Assembly (NCBI GenBank): GCA_029263275.1
Contig: JAJCXU010000251.1
Coordinates: forward strand, 1-12,021
Length of the DNA: 12,021 bases
Source of the DNA: Ilumatobacter sp.
Lineage (GTDB): Bacteria > Actinomycetota > Acidimicrobiia > Acidimicrobiales > Ilumatobacteraceae
Direction of reading: 5' to 3'
The translations under genes were made by a program, and so were the position numbers. How positions within the stretch are numbered: the stretch's first letter is position 1; each line of letters begins with the position of its first letter. The notes below the pieces were generated by a model. That model was not told the origin of the DNA. It ran no database searches and saw only the letters and a list, made by a program, of their open reading frames with translations. Positions 3-10,219 of the stretch are shown one piece after another.

Positions 3-1364
3 GTGGTTGCGCCCCTCGTCGAGCTGTCGCCCGAGGAGGCATCGGCAACCGCCCGCTCGTTGTGGCCCGACTTGCCCGACCGAATTGCGGCCGGCGAACT
101 GCTGAGATTCCTGGGTCAAGGCGCGATGTTGTCGGCGGGTCCGGGGATGTTCGCGTCCGGACGCCAGATGGTGCGCTCGGCGATGCGAATTCTGGAAGAC
201 GAGCAGAGCGTTCGATCCCAGCAAGGCTGGCTGCTCTACATCGAGGCCCTGATGCTCGTGGAGGAGCCATCGAAGGTTGTCCTTCGAGTCCGAACGATTG
301 CCATCGAACTCTGGCGGGCTCGGCATTCCGACGCACCATTGCGCCTGAGTGAGCTCGCGATTCTCGAGTTCTTCTTAGGGTGGTACGACCGCTCACGGTC
401 AACGATCGAGCTCGCACGCGAAGCATCGGCTGAGACCGGCAACGACCTGGCTGCGCTCCCACTGATCGCACTGGAATGCGCACTCGATGTGATTGATGCT
501 CCGGGTTCACCGGAGCCGATCGAAGCGTTCGAACATGCGATCTTCGAGTTACTCGATCACGATTACCTCGCGGTGTTTCATCAGGTCTTCGCCGCTGAAT
601 TCGGTTTGCTCCAGATTCATCTTGGAAACACCGCTGTTGCATCACACTTCGCAGCCGTGGCAGACCAGTCGCCCAACAACTTCATGTCAGCGTCGTTCTC
701 GTTGCGGCGACGTCGGCTGAACGCCCTGCTCCTGAACGAGCATGACCGAGCACGCGGACGTGCTGACCTCGTGGAGCTTCGATCTCTTGCAGTGGAGCTC
801 GATCGACCAGCGCTGGCCAGCCAGATCGATGGCGACCTGGCCGACGTGTTCGTCACCGAGGAATCCGACGGCGACACGACCGAGACACTGCACATCGTCG
901 CGTTGGCTCCGGCGTTCTCCATTTGGCGTGGCGGATTCGAACTCCCAGCCCCGAGCGGGTACACGGCAAAACTCCTGGCACTGCTGATTGCATCGTCGGG
1001 CATCGTGACGATCGACGTGGCACTCGAGGCGCTCTGGCCGAACGCTGACCCTCGAGTCAGTCGCAACCGTTTGCACGGCGTGCTGCTTCGACTCCGGCGG
1101 GCGCTCGGGTTCGGCCCCGATGGCCCAGTCACGTGTCGAGATGAACTGATCCGACTCGAGGCAGGCCCAACGCTGAGCTGTGATGTGTGGGACCTCGAGG
1201 CGGCGATCGACTCAGAAGAAGACATCGTCAACATCGGAGACGTGGCCGACGTGCTCTTCGAACAGTTCCGCTATGACGACCGCGTCTCGATCTATCGCGA
1301 TGACCTTCGGCGGCGAATCAACCGGGCCAGATCAGCAGCAGACTTCGAGACAACCACCAACTGA
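3..1364 (+). CDS. SARP/MalT-like transcriptional regulator, C-terminal part (5' partial)
   Basis: The frame is open from the window edge, so the GTG at 3 is probably an internal codon and the N-terminus lies outside. The visible 453 residues have two parts. Residues ~1-290 are alpha-helical and rich in Leu, Ala and Glu, like the degenerate TPR arrays of MalT/SARP-type regulators. Residues ~295-390 look like an OmpR/SARP-type winged helix, with an aromatic beta-strand start (FSIWRGGFEL), the helix ALEALWPNADPRVSRNRLH and then VLLRLRRALG. A short acidic/basic tail follows. The family binds DNA to activate or repress transcription, often under an N-terminal ATPase domain, which may be missing here. 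A winged helix at the C-terminus is the reverse of classical AfsR/SARP order. The gene is convergent with the ECF41 operon across a 78-bp gap, and its target is unknown. The DNA-binding domain is fairly sure; the family name is less so. Confidence 0.75.
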   Translation: MVAPLVELSPEEASATARSLWPDLPDRIAAGELLRFLGQGAMLSAGPGMFASGRQMVRSAMRILEDEQSVRSQQGWLLYIEALMLVEEPSKVVLRVRTIAIELWRARHSDAPLRLSELAILEFFLGWYDRSRSTIELAREASAETGNDLAALPLIALECALDVIDAPGSPEPIEAFEHAIFELLDHDYLAVFHQVFAAEFGLLQIHLGNTAVASHFAAVADQSPNNFMSASFSLRRRRLNALLLNEHDRARGRADLVELRSLAVELDRPALASQIDGDLADVFVTEESDGDTTETLHIVALAPAFSIWRGGFELPAPSGYTAKLLALLIASSGIVTIDVALEALWPNADPRVSRNRLHGVLLRLRRALGFGPDGPVTCRDELIRLEAGPTLSCDVWDLEAAIDSEEDIVNIGDVADVLFEQFRYDDRVSIYRDDLRRRINRARSAADFETTTN

Positions 1365-1425
1365 ACGAGCGGCGTGGTGGTCAGTAGCTGCATTGCCCGC
1401 TCACGGTTGCACCCGGTCCGGACGT

Positions 1426-1437
1426 GAGGCGAGCCTC
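1426..1437. terminator. Small GC hairpin between convergent genes (weak)
   Basis: GAGG-CGAG-CCTC forms a short 4-bp stem in the gap between the partial regulator and the sigma-factor stop. There is no T-tract, so it may be chance. Confidence 0.15.
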
Positions 1438-1442
1438 GGCCG

Positions 1443-2300
1443 TCAGCGTGGGGTGCGCAGCTGGAGATTGGTCAACTTGTCCGGGTTGATGACCCAACGA
1501 ACGGCCACGATCTGGTGCTGGGCAACATCAACCGTGGCCGCAAGCGTTGTTGCACCGTCGTGGGTGATGACGAAGCCGGGCGCGCCGTTAACGTCGACGG
1601 GCACCACCTCCCCGCCGATGAGGAAGCGAGGCAGGACGGAAGCGACAAACCGCACGACCCGCTCGCGACCGACAATCGGGTGGCGAGCAGCCTTGCGATC
1701 GGCTCCGCCATCACTGACGAGTTGTGCATCGCCAGAGAGCATCGCACTCAGTCCGTCGACGTCCGCGCCGCTGGCTGCATCAAGAAATCGCTCGACCAGT
1801 TCGCGGTGAACGTCGCGGTCGACGTCGAGTCGCAGTCGACCGTCGGCGACCCGCCGGCGAGCGCGCGTGACGAGCTGGCGAGACGCTGGTTCGGTCCGAT
1901 CCAAGGCGCGGGCGATCTCCGGGTAGGAGTACGCGAACACATCGTGGAGGAGAAATGCCGCCCGTTCGACCGGCCCGAGGGTCTCAAGGACCACCAGGAG
2001 GGCGTACGAGATCGTGTCGGCTCGGTCGCTGTCGTCATCGGGCCATTCGACGATTGGCTCAGGGAGCCACGGACCGACGTATTGCTCCCGGCGCGCATGC
2101 GCGGAACGAGCCCGGTCGATTGCGAGTCTCGTCGCGATCGTCGTGGTGAATGCTTCGGGGACTCGGACTTCGCCGCGCTCCAGCGGTTCACGCACACGCA
2201 GCAGCGTTTCTTGGGCGATGTCGTCCGCATCCGCGTGGCTCCCGGTCATGCGGTAGCCAACATCGAATGCACGTTGTCGGAGCGCGGCGAGTTCCGTCAT
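1443..2300 (-). CDS. ECF41-family RNA polymerase sigma factor with fused SnoaL-like domain
   Basis: This 285-aa protein should direct RNA polymerase to its own promoter class. Residues ~5-70 are sigma region 2 (DADDIAQETLLRV, then FTTTIATRLAIDRARS) and ~95-155 are region 4 (LGPVERAAFLLHDVFAYSYPEIA, then RARRR). Residues ~162-285 are a SnoaL/NTF2-like extension. The ECF41 signatures are all present: linker WLPEP at 78-82, DGGA at 197-200 (DGGG in the usual form) and NPDKL at 272-276. In ECF41 the fused domain is known to control activity in place of a separate anti-sigma factor, and no anti-sigma gene is seen here. The ATG overlaps the stop of the upstream CMD gene in an ATGA and has no clear Shine-Dalgarno, so translation is probably coupled. 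A matching ECF41 promoter precedes the operon, implying autoactivation. Confidence 0.95.
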   Translation of the reverse strand: MTELAALRQRAFDVGYRMTGSHADADDIAQETLLRVREPLERGEVRVPEAFTTTIATRLAIDRARSAHARREQYVGPWLPEPIVEWPDDDSDRADTISYALLVVLETLGPVERAAFLLHDVFAYSYPEIARALDRTEPASRQLVTRARRRVADGRLRLDVDRDVHRELVERFLDAASGADVDGLSAMLSGDAQLVSDGGADRKAARHPIVGRERVVRFVASVLPRFLIGGEVVPVDVNGAPGFVITHDGATTLAATVDVAQHQIVAVRWVINPDKLTNLQLRTPR

Positions 2301-2743
2301 CTGTCGTGGGGAGGCTGGTCGGCTCGGGTCGAGATCGCCAGTCGATTCAACACATTGTTGGTGGCGATCGCCACCACCAGTTCGCTGACCTGTTCATCGC
2401 CGAACGTGTTGACGGCGTCTGCCCACGCCATGTCGTCGACACCCCCATCGCCGATGTTCGTCACCGCGTCCGTCAGGGCCAGTGCGGCCCGTTCGCGATC
2501 GGTGAAGAACGGCGACTCAACCCATGCAGCCACGGCCATCACCCGACGAACGTCTTCGCCGTCGCCCAGCGCCTCGGTGCTGTGCATGTCGACACAGAAC
2601 GCGCAGCCGTTGATGATCGAGGCTCTCAGTTTCACCAGGTGCAACAGCGATGCATCCAACGCCGAGCGCACGTGTTGTTCGAGCGCAAAGACCGCCTTGT
2701 AGGCGTCGGGAATCACACTCGCCATATCGATTCGTTGCGTCAT
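2297..2743 (-). CDS. Carboxymuconolactone decarboxylase / AhpD-like protein
   Basis: This ~148-aa alpha-helical protein is of the CMD/AhpD type. The core signature NGCAFCVDMH supplies a CxxC pair followed by His (C48, C51, H55, counting from the upstream ATG at 2746), as in AhpD-like thiol peroxidase/disulfide reductase proteins. A classical decarboxylase role is unlikely in this context; redox activity is inferred from the CxxC. It is the usual partner of ECF41 sigma factors and here is the first gene of a two-gene operon, overlapping the sigma gene by 4 bp. Two ATGs stand side by side (2746 and 2743). The Shine-Dalgarno GGAAGGA at 2749-2755 lies 2 nt from the first and 5 nt from the second, so 2743 is preferred. 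The operon is expected to depend on the ECF41 promoter 40-70 bp upstream. The substrate is unknown. Confidence 0.93.
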   Translation of the reverse strand: MTQRIDMASVIPDAYKAVFALEQHVRSALDASLLHLVKLRASIINGCAFCVDMHSTEALGDGEDVRRVMAVAAWVESPFFTDRERAALALTDAVTNIGDGGVDDMAWADAVNTFGDEQVSELVVAIATNNVLNRLAISTRADQPPHDR

Positions 2744-2748
2744 CATCG

Positions 2749-2755
2749 TCCTTCC
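2749..2755 (-). promoter_or_regulatory. Ribosome binding site deciding the CMD start
   Basis: GGAAGGA on the minus strand lies 5 nt before the ATG at 2743 and only 2 nt before the ATG at 2746. It therefore favours the second of the tandem ATGs. Confidence 0.6.
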
Positions 2756-2786
2756 AGATTGGCGGCCGAATTGCCGTCATCTACTT

Positions 2787-2813
2787 GACGAGACCCGCCT
2801 TCATTCTGTGACA
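2787..2813 (-). promoter_or_regulatory. ECF41-type promoter (TGTCACA-N16-CGTC)
   Basis: Read on the minus strand, TGTCACA (2813-2807) is followed by exactly 16 nt and then CGTC (2790-2787). This equals the promoter motif known for ECF41 sigma factors in every fixed base. Transcription would start near 2780, giving a leader of about 35 nt before the CMD start. It lies 20 bp past the stop of the upstream gene at 2833, so it separates the CMD-sigma operon from that gene. I saw no second full copy in the window. Confidence 0.88.
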
Positions 2814-2832
2814 GCGCGCGCTCGGACCGGTG

Positions 2833-3720
2833 CTACTGGGGTGGCTTCACTCGAACAGCCGGCATCCAACGCGGGCCCGCCGTTGCGTCGATTCGGGCCA
2901 CGAACGCGTCGTGATGCGGCTCGACCAGTTCGCAGAATGCGCGAGTGGCATCGACACCGACCGCCGCCCACGCTGGTGCGGTCAACGCATCCGTGCGGGT
3001 TTCGAGGTCGAGACGGAAGCGGCGACCTGCGTCGCTGATCGCACCGTTTGAGGCAAAGCCCTTGGCTTCGAGGCGCTTCCAGGCGGCTGCGATCGCCTCA
3101 TCATCGTTGCCGCGGCTGCGAGCGATCCATTCTTCGCTGCCGTACTCCTCGATGTCGACCATGGCCGAGTGGATGAGCCCAACCTCGACGTCGTCAAGAT
3201 CTTCGCTGGCGCAGAGGGCCCAGTGGTTGTCGCCGCGCAACTCACGCATGCAGTTTGCGGCAAGCCATGCCGACAGCACCAGACTCATGCCCTCGGGCCG
3301 GGGGCGCTCGCGATGTGCGGCGAACATGGGGCGAGCACCGAAGTGGACGGCGTCGACGCCGCGCCAGAGCGGTTCGGCAAGCTCGGCGAGGCCGGTGGCC
3401 AACCCTGGAGCGATCTCGTCGAGGCCCGGCCCGACTGCAGCAGCACGCACCTCGAGGATCGACTCGACATCGGTGACGTCTTGGTACAGCTTCATCACGT
3501 TGCCGATCACACCCGGATTGATCGAATACGCAGCGGCCGCGGCAACGGCCGGGTTCGCGTTTCCAAGAGATGCGAGGCGCCACGCGACGATCCACCCGAT
3601 GCCGTCCGGCACCCCGAGCGCTTTGTACCCGGCGATGGCAGCCGGATCCCACATCATCCAGCCCACCAAGTCATGGCAGGCAACACCTGCTCGAGCGGTC
3701 AGGTCCTCGGCGTCAGTCAT
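2833..3720 (-). CDS. Probable SCO6745-family (HTH-like) protein of unknown function
   Basis: This 295-aa soluble, mostly alpha-helical protein has no signal peptide or membrane segment. Its pattern recalls the actinobacterial SCO6745 family. It has a small N-terminal helical region followed by GYKALGVPDGIGWIVAWRLASLG at ~31-53, with F/Y-x-x-P-G around 66-73. The central block LRGDNHWALC is at ~161-170. A C-terminal part resembles a winged helix: AWKRLEAKGFASNGAISDAGRRFR at ~213-236, then LETRTDALTAPAW. The family has no firmly established biochemical role, and the winged-helix-like end suggests nucleic-acid or regulatory binding. The ATG at 3720 has no Shine-Dalgarno, but TACTCT lies 6 nt upstream, so a leaderless mRNA is possible. 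It is divergent from the exchanger gene. Its tie to the CMD-ECF41 operon is only positional. Family assignment is from memory of the pattern. Confidence 0.75.
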   Translation of the reverse strand: MTDAEDLTARAGVACHDLVGWMMWDPAAIAGYKALGVPDGIGWIVAWRLASLGNANPAVAAAAAYSINPGVIGNVMKLYQDVTDVESILEVRAAAVGPGLDEIAPGLATGLAELAEPLWRGVDAVHFGARPMFAAHRERPRPEGMSLVLSAWLAANCMRELRGDNHWALCASEDLDDVEVGLIHSAMVDIEEYGSEEWIARSRGNDDEAIAAAWKRLEAKGFASNGAISDAGRRFRLDLETRTDALTAPAWAAVGVDATRAFCELVEPHHDAFVARIDATAGPRWMPAVRVKPPQ

Positions 3721-3807
3721 GGCGACAGAGTAGGTGCCTGCTCAATCTGCCTTTCGATCGACGGCAGTGATGATGATGTGGGCCGTCGTTCGCCGAGCGC
3801 GCCTCCG

Positions 3808-4776
3808 GTGAGCGATGTCGATTACACATGTGTCGTGTCGAGCGTGTTCTGGTTGGTTGCAATGGGTGTTGGCACGGCAGCAATCGTGTGGGGCGCCGAG
3901 AAGTTCGCCGAACATCTCGCCGACGCGTCGAAGCGACTCGGCATCACCGCATTCGCACTTGCGATCTTGCTCGCTGGCGCTGAGCCAGAGGAACTGGCGA
4001 CCGTTGTCACTGCGTCGGCCCGTGGTGTTGATGGGGTCGCGTTCGGCGATGTGATCGGAGCCAACGCTGCGATCGTGACGATCGCTCTCGGGGTCGGGGC
4101 TTGGATCGTGACGATCCCCTTCGGGCGCAACATCCAGCTGTACGGAGCGGGTGGGCTCATCACTGGGCTACTCGCAACGGTCTTGATGTGGGACGGTGCC
4201 CTCGGTCGAGCTGAGGGAGCCATGCTCGTGTGCGCCTACGTCCTCTTCGTGGCAGCAATCTGGCTGCGCGAACGCCGACCGCCATCGTTGGGTGAAGCGG
4301 GCGAACTCAGCGAGGAAGCCGACCCCGACGGCCGGGTCGGCCGTGACCTTGGGTGGGTGCTCGCTGGCCTGACTGCGCTGACGTTGGGTTCGATGGTCCT
4401 GGTTGAAGGCGTCCGCCAGATCACCGAGATCGAGGAAAGCCAAACGCGGCTCGGTCTGACGGTGGTGGGATTTGCGACGGCGTTCGAGTTGGTCGTGCTG
4501 GCCTTCTCGGCAAGCCGACACGGCGTGACCGAGGCAGTGATTGCCGGGGTGATCGGGTCGTACGCCTACAACATGACCATGAGTCTTGGCGTGGGCGCGT
4601 TGGTTGCTCCGATCGCGATTGGCGATGCCGAACTCATCCACACATCACTGATGGTCATGCTGGTCCTGCTCGTGGTGGCCGTCAGCCTGGGAATGCGCGG
4701 CAACCGTCTCGATCGCCGCGACGCGTACGTGCTCTTCGCCGGATATCCGGTGTTCGTGCTCTTCGCACTGTTGTGA
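3808..4776 (+). CDS. CaCA-superfamily (sodium/calcium exchanger-like) membrane protein
   Basis: This ~322-aa protein, counted from GTG 3808, has about ten hydrophobic segments in two inverted halves with a charged loop between them (~154-180), as in YrbG/NCX-type cation antiporters. The first repeat has GAEPEE (57-62) in place of GTSLPE and GDVIGANAAI (80-89) in place of GNVIGSNIFN. The second has FATAFE (222-227) and GVIGSYAYN (247-255). Acidic residues E62 and E227 remain at the ion site, but several other usual ligands differ, so ion specificity is uncertain. The open frame runs further upstream but is antisense to the neighbouring gene. Possible starts are GTG 3778, 3808, 3835 and 3844 and ATG 3862. 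None has a good Shine-Dalgarno, and 3835 would fit a leaderless mRNA behind TACACA. It is convergent with the 2TM gene, with an 11-bp gap. Confidence 0.85.
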   Translation: MSDVDYTCVVSSVFWLVAMGVGTAAIVWGAEKFAEHLADASKRLGITAFALAILLAGAEPEELATVVTASARGVDGVAFGDVIGANAAIVTIALGVGAWIVTIPFGRNIQLYGAGGLITGLLATVLMWDGALGRAEGAMLVCAYVLFVAAIWLRERRPPSLGEAGELSEEADPDGRVGRDLGWVLAGLTALTLGSMVLVEGVRQITEIEESQTRLGLTVVGFATAFELVVLAFSASRHGVTEAVIAGVIGSYAYNMTMSLGVGALVAPIAIGDAELIHTSLMVMLVLLVVAVSLGMRGNRLDRRDAYVLFAGYPVFVLFALL

Positions 4777-6894: not shown

Positions 6895-7542
6895 TCAGAA
6901 AGGTCGTGGTGACTCCGTTGCCCCGAGGCGCGCTCTGACGAATGCCTCGACTTCGCGGCGCGCCGATGTGAGATCGGTGGAGGGATCGAGCATCGACGCG
7001 AACGCGATGCCGCGCAGCATGCCGACCAGGGTCGTCGCGAAGCCAGCGGGGTCGATCGCTGGCAACATCAGCTCGTTGGTTCTCGCCAGAGTGACCCGGT
7101 TGGCGATCAGTGTCCGGAAGTGCTGATCGGCTTCGACAATCGCGTCGCGACCGGCGGTGTGGCGGTGCGCGATCGACTCGGCGATCAACGCCAGCCGCGC
7201 TCGGTTGAGCGCAGGTGGGTCGACGATGATGTCGAAGTACACGCCGACCAAGACGAGCACCTCGTCGAGCAGTGACCCATCGTTCGATCGCGCCGACGCC
7301 ATCGCGTCGCGGAACTCGGTGGTGACGGTTTCGGCCACGGCACGCACGAGCGCTGCCTTCGACCCGAAGTGGTAGGCGACGAGGCCGCGGCTGTAGCCGG
7401 CGCGCTCGCCAACCTTGGCGAGTGTGAGGTGAGACGTGCCGTTCTCGCTGATGAGGAGCGACGCCGCCTCGATGAGTCGACGTTCCGCCTCGGTGCGGCG
7501 CTCGGCCTGGGTCCGGCGCTCCGACGTGGCGGACGTGCTCAC
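6895..7542 (-). CDS. TetR/AcrR-family regulator, coupled to the SnoaL gene
   Basis: This 215-aa protein has an Arg/Glu-rich lead (ERRTQAERRTEAERR at ~8-22). A TetR helix-turn-helix follows at ~23-70, with LTLAKVGERAGYSRGLVAYHF as the core and then SKAALVRAV. A helical ligand domain of unassigned type occupies ~80-215. The frame continues upstream, but that part is antisense-style shadow of the SnoaL gene. The chosen start is GTG 7542, which overlaps the SnoaL stop as GTGA, so it is the second gene of the operon and translationally coupled. It probably binds the 26-bp palindrome upstream of the SnoaL gene and so controls its own operon. The inducer is unknown. It is convergent with the preceding TetR gene. 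Confidence 0.92.
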   Translation of the reverse strand: MSTSATSERRTQAERRTEAERRLIEAASLLISENGTSHLTLAKVGERAGYSRGLVAYHFGSKAALVRAVAETVTTEFRDAMASARSNDGSLLDEVLVLVGVYFDIIVDPPALNRARLALIAESIAHRHTAGRDAIVEADQHFRTLIANRVTLARTNELMLPAIDPAGFATTLVGMLRGIAFASMLDPSTDLTSARREVEAFVRARLGATESPRPF

Positions 7543-8012
7543 ATCATCTGGGCCGCAGCGAAGTCGGCGGTGCCCACGGCCGGGAGGAGGTCCTCGCGTC
7601 CGATCTGGCGAACGAGGCTGCCCGTGTCGAGATAGACGCGTTCGTTGATGATGCGGTCGCCGTCGAAGAAGAAGACGGCGATCACCGCGACTCGAAACGC
7701 CTTGCCCGTGGGTGGGCCGCCGACGAACTCTCCGTCGTTGGTGCCGAGCAAGTCGAACTCGGCGATGATCGTGTCGTCGGAGGCCACATGCATTCGCACG
7801 TTCTCGTGGCGTTGGTCGGGGAACGCCTCGCGTTGCGCACGGTGGTAGGCCACGACCGCATCGCGCCCTTCGTGCACCTGCCCGGTTGCGACGATCTCGT
7901 ACCGAGGTGTCTCGCGAAATGTGCTCAAGCACCGGTCCCAGTCGTGATCGACTTCGGACTGGAAGTGCTCCTCGAGCACGGCCAGACGTCGAGCCGTCAA
8001 TGTGTCGTCCAT
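7539..8012 (-). CDS. SnoaL-like / NTF2-fold protein
   Basis: This 157-aa single-domain protein has the alpha+beta cone fold of SnoaL/NTF2-like proteins. An N-terminal helix pair (VLEEHFQSEVDHDWDRCLSTF) leads to RYEIVATGQVHEGRDAVVAYHRAQREAFPD. The strands carrying NVRMHVASDDTIIAEFDLLGT, the FVGGPPTGKAF loop and VIAVFFFDGDRIINERVYLD follow. SnoaL-like proteins bind or turn over small hydrophobic ligands (polyketide cyclization, ester or epoxide hydrolysis), and the substrate here cannot be named. ATG 8012 is supported by AGGA 8 nt upstream. It heads an operon with a TetR gene (4-bp overlap) behind a 26-bp palindrome, so it is probably induced by a ligand of that repressor, perhaps its own substrate. 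The family call is good; the activity is open. Confidence 0.9.
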   Translation of the reverse strand: MDDTLTARRLAVLEEHFQSEVDHDWDRCLSTFRETPRYEIVATGQVHEGRDAVVAYHRAQREAFPDQRHENVRMHVASDDTIIAEFDLLGTNDGEFVGGPPTGKAFRVAVIAVFFFDGDRIINERVYLDTGSLVRQIGREDLLPAVGTADFAAAQMM

Positions 8013-8602: not shown

Positions 8603-8657
8603 ATGTAGTTACGTGGGAATACTATTTCTCGGATATGGTTACATCACATAACTACAT
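8603..8657. promoter_or_regulatory. Inverted repeat in the MarR/pirin intergenic region (putative operator)
   Basis: ATGTAGTTACGTG (8603-8615) and CACATAACTACAT (8645-8657) are inverted copies matching at 12 of 13 positions, 29 nt apart. The right copy overlaps a smaller dyad, GTTA-N7-TAAC (8638-8652). The interval is AT-rich compared with its surroundings and carries -10-like TAGTAT on the minus strand at 8623-8618. MarR dimers binding at both copies would cover both divergent promoters. Confidence 0.65.
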
Positions 8658-8670
8658 CGGAAGGAATCGC

Positions 8671-9507
8671 ATGACTACTCACACAGGCCACACCTCTCGC
8701 TCGGTCGAGTTCACCCACTCCGCCGACAACGGCGGTCCGATCCACGGAGTGATCGGCACCAACGAACTCCGTCGGCGACTGAACCCGTTCGTGTTCCTCG
8801 ACCACTTCGACGTGACCACTGACAGCAAGTGGGGATTCGATTGGCACCCCCACAGTGGCGTCGGCACCTTCACCTACGTGCTCGCCAGCGATCTTGACCA
8901 CGCCGACACCGGCGGAGCAGTCGAACGACTCGACGAAGGCGGGGTGCAGTGGATGGCCTCCGGAGGCGGGATCTGGCATCAGGAGTACTACCACCCACGC
9001 GCCGAGCACCAAGTCAGCGGATTTCAACTCTGGATTGCGTTGCCACCGGATCTCGAGAACGGTCCCAGCAACTACCAAGACGTCGCATCCGATGATCTGC
9101 CCGTGGTCGACACCACCAGCGTCCTCGCCGGCACCTTCATGGCGGCGACCAGCCCGATCGATGTGCCCGTCAACTTCAACTACTTCGACGTCACGCTCGA
9201 CGCCAGTACCGAATGGAGCTTCACACCGCCAGCTGACCACGATGTCGCCTGGATCTTCACCCACGACGGAAACGTCGAGACCGGAGGCACAACCGTCGAG
9301 CCTCGGACACTTGCAGTGTTCGAAGCCAGCATCGACCCCATCGTCGTCACGTCCGCCAGCGAAGGCGCCAAGTTCATGGTCGGCACCGCTGCAGCAAGCA
9401 CACAGCCGATCGTCGCGAGGGGCGGATCCATGCACACCACTGCCGAGGCACTGCAGTCCGGCCAACGCAGAATCGCCGAACTCGCAGACCAAACACGAGG
9501 CCACTGA
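8671..9507 (+). CDS. Pirin-family bicupin protein
   Basis: This 278-aa protein has two cupin domains. The N-terminal one holds the pirin metal site: H59 and H61 in FDWHPHSGVGTFTYVL, and H103 and E105 in GGGIWHQEYY. All four match the His-His-His-Glu iron ligands of known pirins. LNPFVFLDHFD at ~37-47 and HQVSGFQLWIALP at ~113 on are also typical. The C-terminal cupin (~165-270) is more divergent. Bacterial pirins include quercetin 2,3-dioxygenases and proteins acting on redox metabolism; which applies here is unknown. ATG 8671 has GGAAGGA 5 nt upstream. An upstream in-frame extension crosses the intergenic operator and is rejected. It is divergent from, and probably repressed by, the MarR gene. 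It is convergent with the next TetR gene. Confidence 0.95.
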   Translation: MTTHTGHTSRSVEFTHSADNGGPIHGVIGTNELRRRLNPFVFLDHFDVTTDSKWGFDWHPHSGVGTFTYVLASDLDHADTGGAVERLDEGGVQWMASGGGIWHQEYYHPRAEHQVSGFQLWIALPPDLENGPSNYQDVASDDLPVVDTTSVLAGTFMAATSPIDVPVNFNYFDVTLDASTEWSFTPPADHDVAWIFTHDGNVETGGTTVEPRTLAVFEASIDPIVVTSASEGAKFMVGTAAASTQPIVARGGSMHTTAEALQSGQRRIAELADQTRGH

Positions 9508-9559: not shown

Positions 9560-10186
9560 TCAGGTGGGCTTGGCTGCGTCGAGCACCCGCTCGATGGCGG
9601 ACCGAGCACGAGAGATGATGACGGGGTCGTCATGGAGGATGAAGCCGGTGTTCGCGGAGATCACTATGGCGTTGAGTTCGAACACGAGCCCTGCTACGTC
9701 GGTGTCTGAGCGAAGCTGCTGGTTCGTCACGGCTTGTGACGCAGCAGCACTCAGGAGGCCGATCCAGTCCCTCTGGTTCGTCGCGACCAGTTCTCTCAGT
9801 GGGCCGGCGCGCCCACCAAGCTCAGATGCTGCGGCGGCGAAGAAGCAGCCGCCCGGAAGCGTGCGCTGCTCGACGTAGGACAAGAACATCTCACACAATC
9901 CGGTGAGGCGTTCGAGTCCTTCGTCCCTCAGGGCCGGCACAACGACGACGTCCACGAAGAGCTTGCGGGCGTTCTCGACGGTTGCCAACTGCAGGTCTTG
10001 TTTGGAGTCGAAGTGGGCATACACACCGCTCTTGCTGACGGCTGTGGCGTTGGCCAGCTTGCCGATGGTGAGTCCATCGAGACCTTCGACGGTTGCGAGC
10101 CGAACGGCCGTGTCGAGGATCAGTTGCTTCGTTCGATCGCCATCGGCTCGAGTGCGACGTGGCGTCTTGACTGATCTGTCGGTCAT
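9560..10186 (-). CDS. TetR/AcrR-family regulator, divergent from a methyltransferase
   Basis: This 208-aa protein has a basic N-terminal arm (KTPRRTRADGDRTK) and a TetR helix-turn-helix at ~17-70, with LTIGKLANATAVSKSGVYAHF as the core and then SKQDLQLATVE. The C-terminal domain carries the block GGCFFAAAASELGGRAGPLRE seen in a common AcrR subgroup. ATG 10186 is chosen over GTG 10204, which lies inside the operator. There is no Shine-Dalgarno, but TAACTT sits 8 nt upstream of the ATG, so a leaderless transcript is likely. A 45-bp perfect inverted repeat begins 14 bp upstream and covers the promoters of this gene and of the divergent methyltransferase, implying joint repression. The effector is unknown. 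Confidence 0.92.
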   Translation of the reverse strand: MTDRSVKTPRRTRADGDRTKQLILDTAVRLATVEGLDGLTIGKLANATAVSKSGVYAHFDSKQDLQLATVENARKLFVDVVVVPALRDEGLERLTGLCEMFLSYVEQRTLPGGCFFAAAASELGGRAGPLRELVATNQRDWIGLLSAAASQAVTNQQLRSDTDVAGLVFELNAIVISANTGFILHDDPVIISRARSAIERVLDAAKPT

Positions 10187-10189
10187 CGA

Positions 10190-10219
10190 TTGACAAGTTA
10201 GCACGATCGGTCGTACTCT
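10190..10219 (+). promoter_or_regulatory. Putative promoter of the methyltransferase gene
   Basis: A perfect TTGACA (10190-10195), 18 nt, then TACTCT (10214-10219), for a start near 10226. The left arm of the operator (10200-10217) lies in the spacer and reaches the -10 box, as expected for repression. Confidence 0.5.

Follow-up and report, generated by a model that had tools for sequence, protein, structure and literature searches.

We analysed a 12,021-nt stretch of Ilumatobacter sp. DNA (contig JAJCXU010000251.1 of assembly GCA_029263275.1; hereafter the window), whose minus strand carries an operon for a carboxymuconolactone decarboxylase (CMD) and a sigma factor of the extracytoplasmic function (ECF) group ECF41. 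We found that the element TGTCACA-N16-CGTC in front of the CMD gene is very probably the promoter of this operon and read by the operon's own sigma factor, which would place the operon under positive autoregulation. The published ECF41 promoter, the operon layout and published truncation work make autoregulation gated by the domain fused to the sigma factor the best explanation.

An ECF41-type promoter core precedes the CMD-sigma operon

The original prediction held that the minus strand matches every fixed base of TGTCACA-N16-CGTC, spacer included, and this is exactly what is found at 2787-2813. The element agrees with the definition of an ECF41 promoter (TGTCACA, 16 ± 1 bp, CGTC) upstream of an ECF gene or of a carboxymuconolactone decarboxylase, oxidoreductase or epimerase (COE) gene, and it is the sole match in the window even when two mismatches are allowed (shuffles average 6.8). 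The mere presence of the motif in 12 kb is not significant, because at least one exact match with spacers of 14-18 also turned up in 19 of 200 dinucleotide-shuffled versions of the whole window. As for its placement, the stop of the upstream HTH_67 gene (2833) and the first CMD ATG (2746) are separated by a gap of 86 nt; the motif falls within this gap, 40 nt before that ATG, and only 71 of 400,000 simulated 86-nt stretches (first-order Markov) carried the motif with a spacer of 15-17. The bare string is weak to modest evidence, whereas its position is strong evidence. Mapped ECF41 promoters start at a G with a leader of 22/23 nt, or of 31/32 nt according to Table 5 of the same study (PMC3426412), and by analogy transcription would start at a G shortly after CGTC (Table 1). 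No Rfam match was found in the window at gathering thresholds. Comparison supports the reading of 2787-2813 as an ECF41-type promoter.

Rhodobacter sphaeroides, which belongs to a different phylum from the window organism, carries a similar gene pair. In this pair, RSP_0606-ecf41Rsp, overlapping CMD and ECF41 genes follow TGTCACA-16 nt-CGTC with no anti-sigma gene nearby, and the two genes were proposed to form the single target transcript; unlike that of the window operon, its promoter has been mapped and tested (PMC3426412). Similarly, the Sinorhizobium meliloti pair SMb20029-rpoE9 shares the gene order and TGTCACA-N16-CGTC, its start has been mapped and it was the single target in that study (PMC6180224). 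Bacillus licheniformis ydfG / ecf41Bli also has a CMD target and the same -35 element, while its -10 element differs (TGTT; PMC3426412). The ECF41 promoter was mapped and shown to be sigma-responsive in B. licheniformis (with a reporter in Bacillus subtilis, which has no native ECF41) and R. sphaeroides, and among 107 loci with a COE gene followed by an ECF41 gene it was placed before the COE gene in 97 and before the ECF gene in none (Wecke et al. 2012, PMC3426412, Table 4).

Spacer and position of the motif are conserved at related ECF41 loci

Across 60 genomes, our own included, the exact motif with the N16 spacer had 62 matches and the N18 control 56. As N16 is hardly commoner than N18, genome-wide enrichment was rejected as proof of function. 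The two spacers differed in position: 15 of the 62 N16 matches, those of the window and of a second contig (C101) included, lay no more than 2 kb upstream of an ECF41-like place, on the same strand, with one further match divergent, whereas none of the 56 N18 matches did. The reference for this comparison was 30 ECF41-like places, of about 70 bits or more, among the matches listed. A separate scan of genome contigs yielded mainly distant ECFs and was little help.

The spacer was assessed upstream of the sigma gene at 43 loci, namely the window, C101, L066-L083 (18) and L124-L146 (23), leaving out the weaker L084-L094, whose similarity is largely confined to the sigma domains. The stretch scanned was mostly about 1.5 kb and shorter in some cases (156 nt at L126, 299 nt at L145). 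On the strand of the sigma gene, TGTCACA-N16-CGTC was present at 24 of the 43 loci and TGTCAC-N17-CGTC at 31, including those 24. Other spacers from 8 to 25 occurred at none or one locus each, except for a spacer of 13, which was found at five loci, all of them N16 loci reading CGTCGTC. Beside the sigma gene, tblastn identified a relative of the C101 oxidoreductase at 23 of the 43 loci and a CMD relative at four (the window, L124, L133 and L139).

These loci also vary in the distance between promoter and gene. At 12 of the 31 motif-bearing ECF41 loci (L054 (236), L067-L070, L072, L077, L078 and L125-L128), the first gene has an ATG in frame 8-10 nt after CGTC; a transcription start some 9 nt past CGTC would make these mRNAs leaderless. 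The window operon differs from them in its 40-nt gap and Shine-Dalgarno-like site. At L068 (1375-1434, sigma orientation), the ECF41 gene is, by eye, divergent from an epimerase-like gene; the exact motif faces the latter and a one-base variant, TGTCACG, faces the sigma gene. CMD genes were also considered as trans targets at three CMD loci in other genomes (L148-L150), of which only L150 has a near-consensus site, one base short: GTCACA-N16-CGTC, with the first T missing, at 1385, some 116 nt upstream of the CMD match. Its genome, G028, has ECF41-like genes on other contigs, and the L150 CMD gene is a possible trans target of ECF41.

The operon encodes a CMD protein and an ECF41-type sigma factor

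The first gene encodes CMD, the typical ECF41 target, as had been predicted: its product matches PF02627 (E 1.8e-19) and TIGR00778 (ahpD_dom) and carries CAFC at residues 48-51, in line with the CxxC stated as a feature of AhpD-like CMD proteins linked to ECF41 (PMC3426412). Of its two candidate start codons, the second (ATG 2743) is favoured by the Shine-Dalgarno-like GGAAGGA. The CMD gene lies immediately upstream of the sigma gene, which provides the adjacent COE gene typical of ECF41; the ATGA overlap is consistent with translational coupling of the two genes, which are probably carried on one transcript.

The sigma protein matches PF04542 (Sigma70_r2) and PF08281 (r4_2) above cut-off, as expected of regions 2 and 4, and exceeds the cut-off of the SigJ model NF007214 (280.4 vs 271). 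Solved Mycobacterium tuberculosis SigJ (5xe7) aligned to residues 2-282, practically the whole length, with an E of 1.1e-41. The protein carries WLPEP (78-82), DGG (197-199) and NPDKL (272-276), the first of which lies in the sigma2-sigma4 linker, where it is a stated ECF41 feature (PMC3426412). WLPEP, DGG, N272 and K275 were invariant in all 30 aligned proteins, that is, the window protein and 29 of the 119 other relatives listed. The SnoaL-like C-terminal extension of about 100 aa, also an ECF41 feature, is present, and a search at E 0.01 detected SnoaL_2 in 29 of these 30 sequences, a set that includes the window protein. A structure predicted from this alignment had a mean pLDDT of 82 and a pTM of 0.51, with a poor linker (72-88); it matched the folds of SigJ, the best match, and SigG1 first, and those of ketosteroid isomerases for the C-terminal part. 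Whole-chain TM-scores were low (0.36-0.37 for SigJ) because the placement of the domains is uncertain, and we therefore relied only on the domain folds.

Table 1. Coordinates of the operon, its predicted promoter and the upstream gene in the window.
Feature	Position	Strand	Details
-35 element TGTCACA	2807..2813	-	exact match
-10 element CGTC, 16 nt after -35	2787..2790	-	exact match
Putative transcription start, G	2778..2781	-	6-9 nt after CGTC; by analogy with mapped ECF41 promoters
GGAAGGA, Shine-Dalgarno-like	2749..2755	-	5 nt before ATG 2743; from sequence
CMD (AhpD-like) gene	2297..2746	-	ATG 2746 gives 149 aa, ATG 2743 gives 148 aa
ATGA, CMD stop overlapping sigma start	2297..2300	-	4-base overlap; from sequence
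ECF41/SigJ-type sigma factor gene	1443..2300	-	285 aa; SnoaL/NTF2-like C-terminal domain at about residues 162-276
HTH_67 (SCO6745-family) gene	2833..3720	-	upstream, co-directional; PF21863 E 2.2e-55; NF047719

A second ECF41 operon carries the same promoter core

The possibility that this is the only such target in the genome did not hold. A scan of the assembly (3.54 Mb in 672 contigs, about 70% complete) identified four exact TGTCACA-N16-CGTC matches, two of which precede COE-ECF41 operons, those of the window and of C101. Of the other two, one is antisense within the gene of an FkbM-like methyltransferase; the other falls in a gap of 35 nt that separates two minus-strand open reading frames (ORFs) and points against the second of these. 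On C101, the exact motif (3109-3135) stands 9 nt before an in-frame ATG of a gene for an amino-oxidase-type flavin adenine dinucleotide (FAD) oxidoreductase. An ECF41 gene follows, which overlaps the oxidoreductase gene by four bases when read from its first possible start and is cut by the contig end. The two sigma proteins are 49% identical over query residues 13-204 (HMMER; 44.7% by tblastn), with a similar region 4. The C101 promoter is preceded at 40 nt by a second TGTCACA (L054 160-166), which has no CGTC at spacer 16.

Because the C101 operon bears the same core, the window promoter is not the sole predicted ECF41 target, and further targets may be missing from the scan because the assembly is incomplete. 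A large ECF41 regulon was not seen in the assembly, of which exact sites only were scanned. As both operons stand behind an identical core, the two sigma factors may cross-activate, and the description of the window operon as a self-contained switch is overstated. Multiple ECF41 copies in actinobacteria are already known (PMC3426412); S. meliloti, by contrast, has a single listed ECF41 sigma factor, RpoE9. We raise only tentatively, as a rather unlikely outcome, that the two operons form a coupled, mutually activating circuit in which either fused C-terminal sensor could switch on both redox outputs.

Proposed autoregulation and competing explanations

Under autoregulation, basal transcription, from leak or from HTH_67 read-through, would supply some sigma factor, which would become active once its fused SnoaL-like C-terminal domain takes a permissive state. 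RNA polymerase with the active sigma factor would then read 2787-2813 and transcribe the CMD gene. Through the shared transcript and the ATGA-overlapping frames, this would yield more sigma factor, with the CMD redox enzyme as the output. Motif position, spacer conservation and the published layout make self-activation of the sigma factor probable, as originally proposed. Positive autoregulation is common among ECF sigma factors, being found in most operons by one statement and in about 55% by a cited promoter-prediction study (PMC8103513).

The further claim that the fused SnoaL-like domain is nothing but a brake, and the only one, on the sigma factor is overstated. Partial removal of the C-terminal extension raised activity about 20-fold in B. 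licheniformis and about 120-fold in R. sphaeroides, whereas complete removal abolished it (PMC3426412), so that the extension is mostly inhibitory but also partly required. According to a review, the extension contacts the linker and blocks binding of core polymerase, and activation by conformational change was suggested (PMC8999054). As expected, no obvious anti-sigma gene was seen among the neighbours (the HTH_67 gene and a 453-aa ORF without a Pfam match at E 0.001), the remaining genome not having been searched. Bistability of the loop, however, is unsupported, as positive feedback alone is insufficient and cooperativity is needed. No cooperativity is reported for the ECF41 group in the published work covered, and ECF41 is not named in the titles and abstract openings of the papers found on ECF feedback and bistability, which is no proof of absence.

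Several observations weigh against autoregulation from this promoter. The organism is represented here only by a 70%-complete assembly. The sigma protein scores below the curated cut-off of TIGR02957 (SigX4; 299.6 vs 323.25 bits), a model that corresponds to ECF41, although this cut-off was not treated as defining. SnoaL_2 is sub-threshold in the sigma protein itself (E 0.003; 18.6 of 27 bits). The opposite strand has an exact N16 match at three of the 43 loci, although no other spacer matches there and the match at L068 precedes a divergent gene. TGTCAC-N17-CGTC is missing from the scanned stretch at 12 of the 43 loci (L071, L076, L080, L081, L124, L131, L138, L139, L140, L144, L145 and L146), with L080 having an exact site on the same contig, further upstream than the stretch scanned. 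Among them is L124, which has CMD in front and whose sigma protein is the closest among the genomes searched (51% identical); by eye, it reads CGTCACG-N16-CGTC, with the -35 element off at two of seven bases. L005, L006 and L007, apparently relatives that belong to other classes, gave no strict match. Moreover, native and plasmid-borne sigma transcripts were indistinguishable in R. sphaeroides (PMC3426412) and the S. meliloti target lists omitted sigma genes (PMC6180224), and self-activation in these published cases therefore rests on operon layout. Finally, a motif match is not sufficient, as three further B. licheniformis sites, all of them inexact, showed no activation when tested (PMC3426412).

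Autoregulation would also be compatible with a cross-regulated pair, which we regard as quite possible, if short of probable: the window and C101 sigma factors would both serve the promoter, leaving the loop open, with the C101 sigma factor as an important or perhaps the main driver. The FAD oxidoreductase and overlapping ECF41 genes of C101 behind the same core, as well as the likeness of the two sigma proteins and their region 4, argue for such a pair. However, the spacer sequences of the two promoters differ, and other promoter bases may insulate the paralogues; besides, the truncated C101 sigma gene leaves its C-terminal domain not seen whole.

The operon might instead be expressed mainly by read-through from the HTH_67 gene or from a housekeeping promoter, with ECF41 activity at 2787-2813 minor or silent. 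The HTH_67 gene is a possible source of read-through: it is co-directional, it stops 86 nt short of CMD, and a search of 1300-3900 revealed no terminator-like site; yet no sigma-70-like match was found in the gap, and motif position and spacer are conserved at ECF41 loci, and we consider this explanation improbable. A functionless chance match would fit the near-equal N18 and N16 totals in the 60 genomes and the two own-genome matches outside ECF41 operons, which look like chance. Such a match is very improbable given how rarely simulated gaps carry the motif and how completely the N18 matches are absent near ECF41 places. Autoregulation from 2787-2813 thus remains our preferred explanation.

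Genomic context and meaning

No match to the window CMD was found at E 1e-15 in the nine congeners searched, and for this reason the CMD-sigma operon looks accessory within the genus, an argument weakened by genome incompleteness. The nearest relatives are database proteins, 66% identical for the sigma protein and 79% for CMD; Acidimicrobiales and Ilumatobacter are among the sources named for relatives of the two proteins. Elsewhere, the window carries genes for a Na/Ca exchanger (3724-4776), a SnoaL-family protein (7539-8012), a pirin (8644-9507) and a TetR regulator (9560-10204), and no link between these and the operon was seen.

The window operon is an ordinary example of the ECF41 layout already published (Wecke et al. 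2012). It joins a group of sigma factors that is well described yet lacks a physiological explanation, and for which the ECF41 study obtained no reproducible phenotype (PMC3426412). The spacer and position controls show strict upkeep of the 16-nt spacer before ECF41 operons across the class, and the presence of two ECF41 operons with the same core in one genome makes their cross-talk a question worth a second look.
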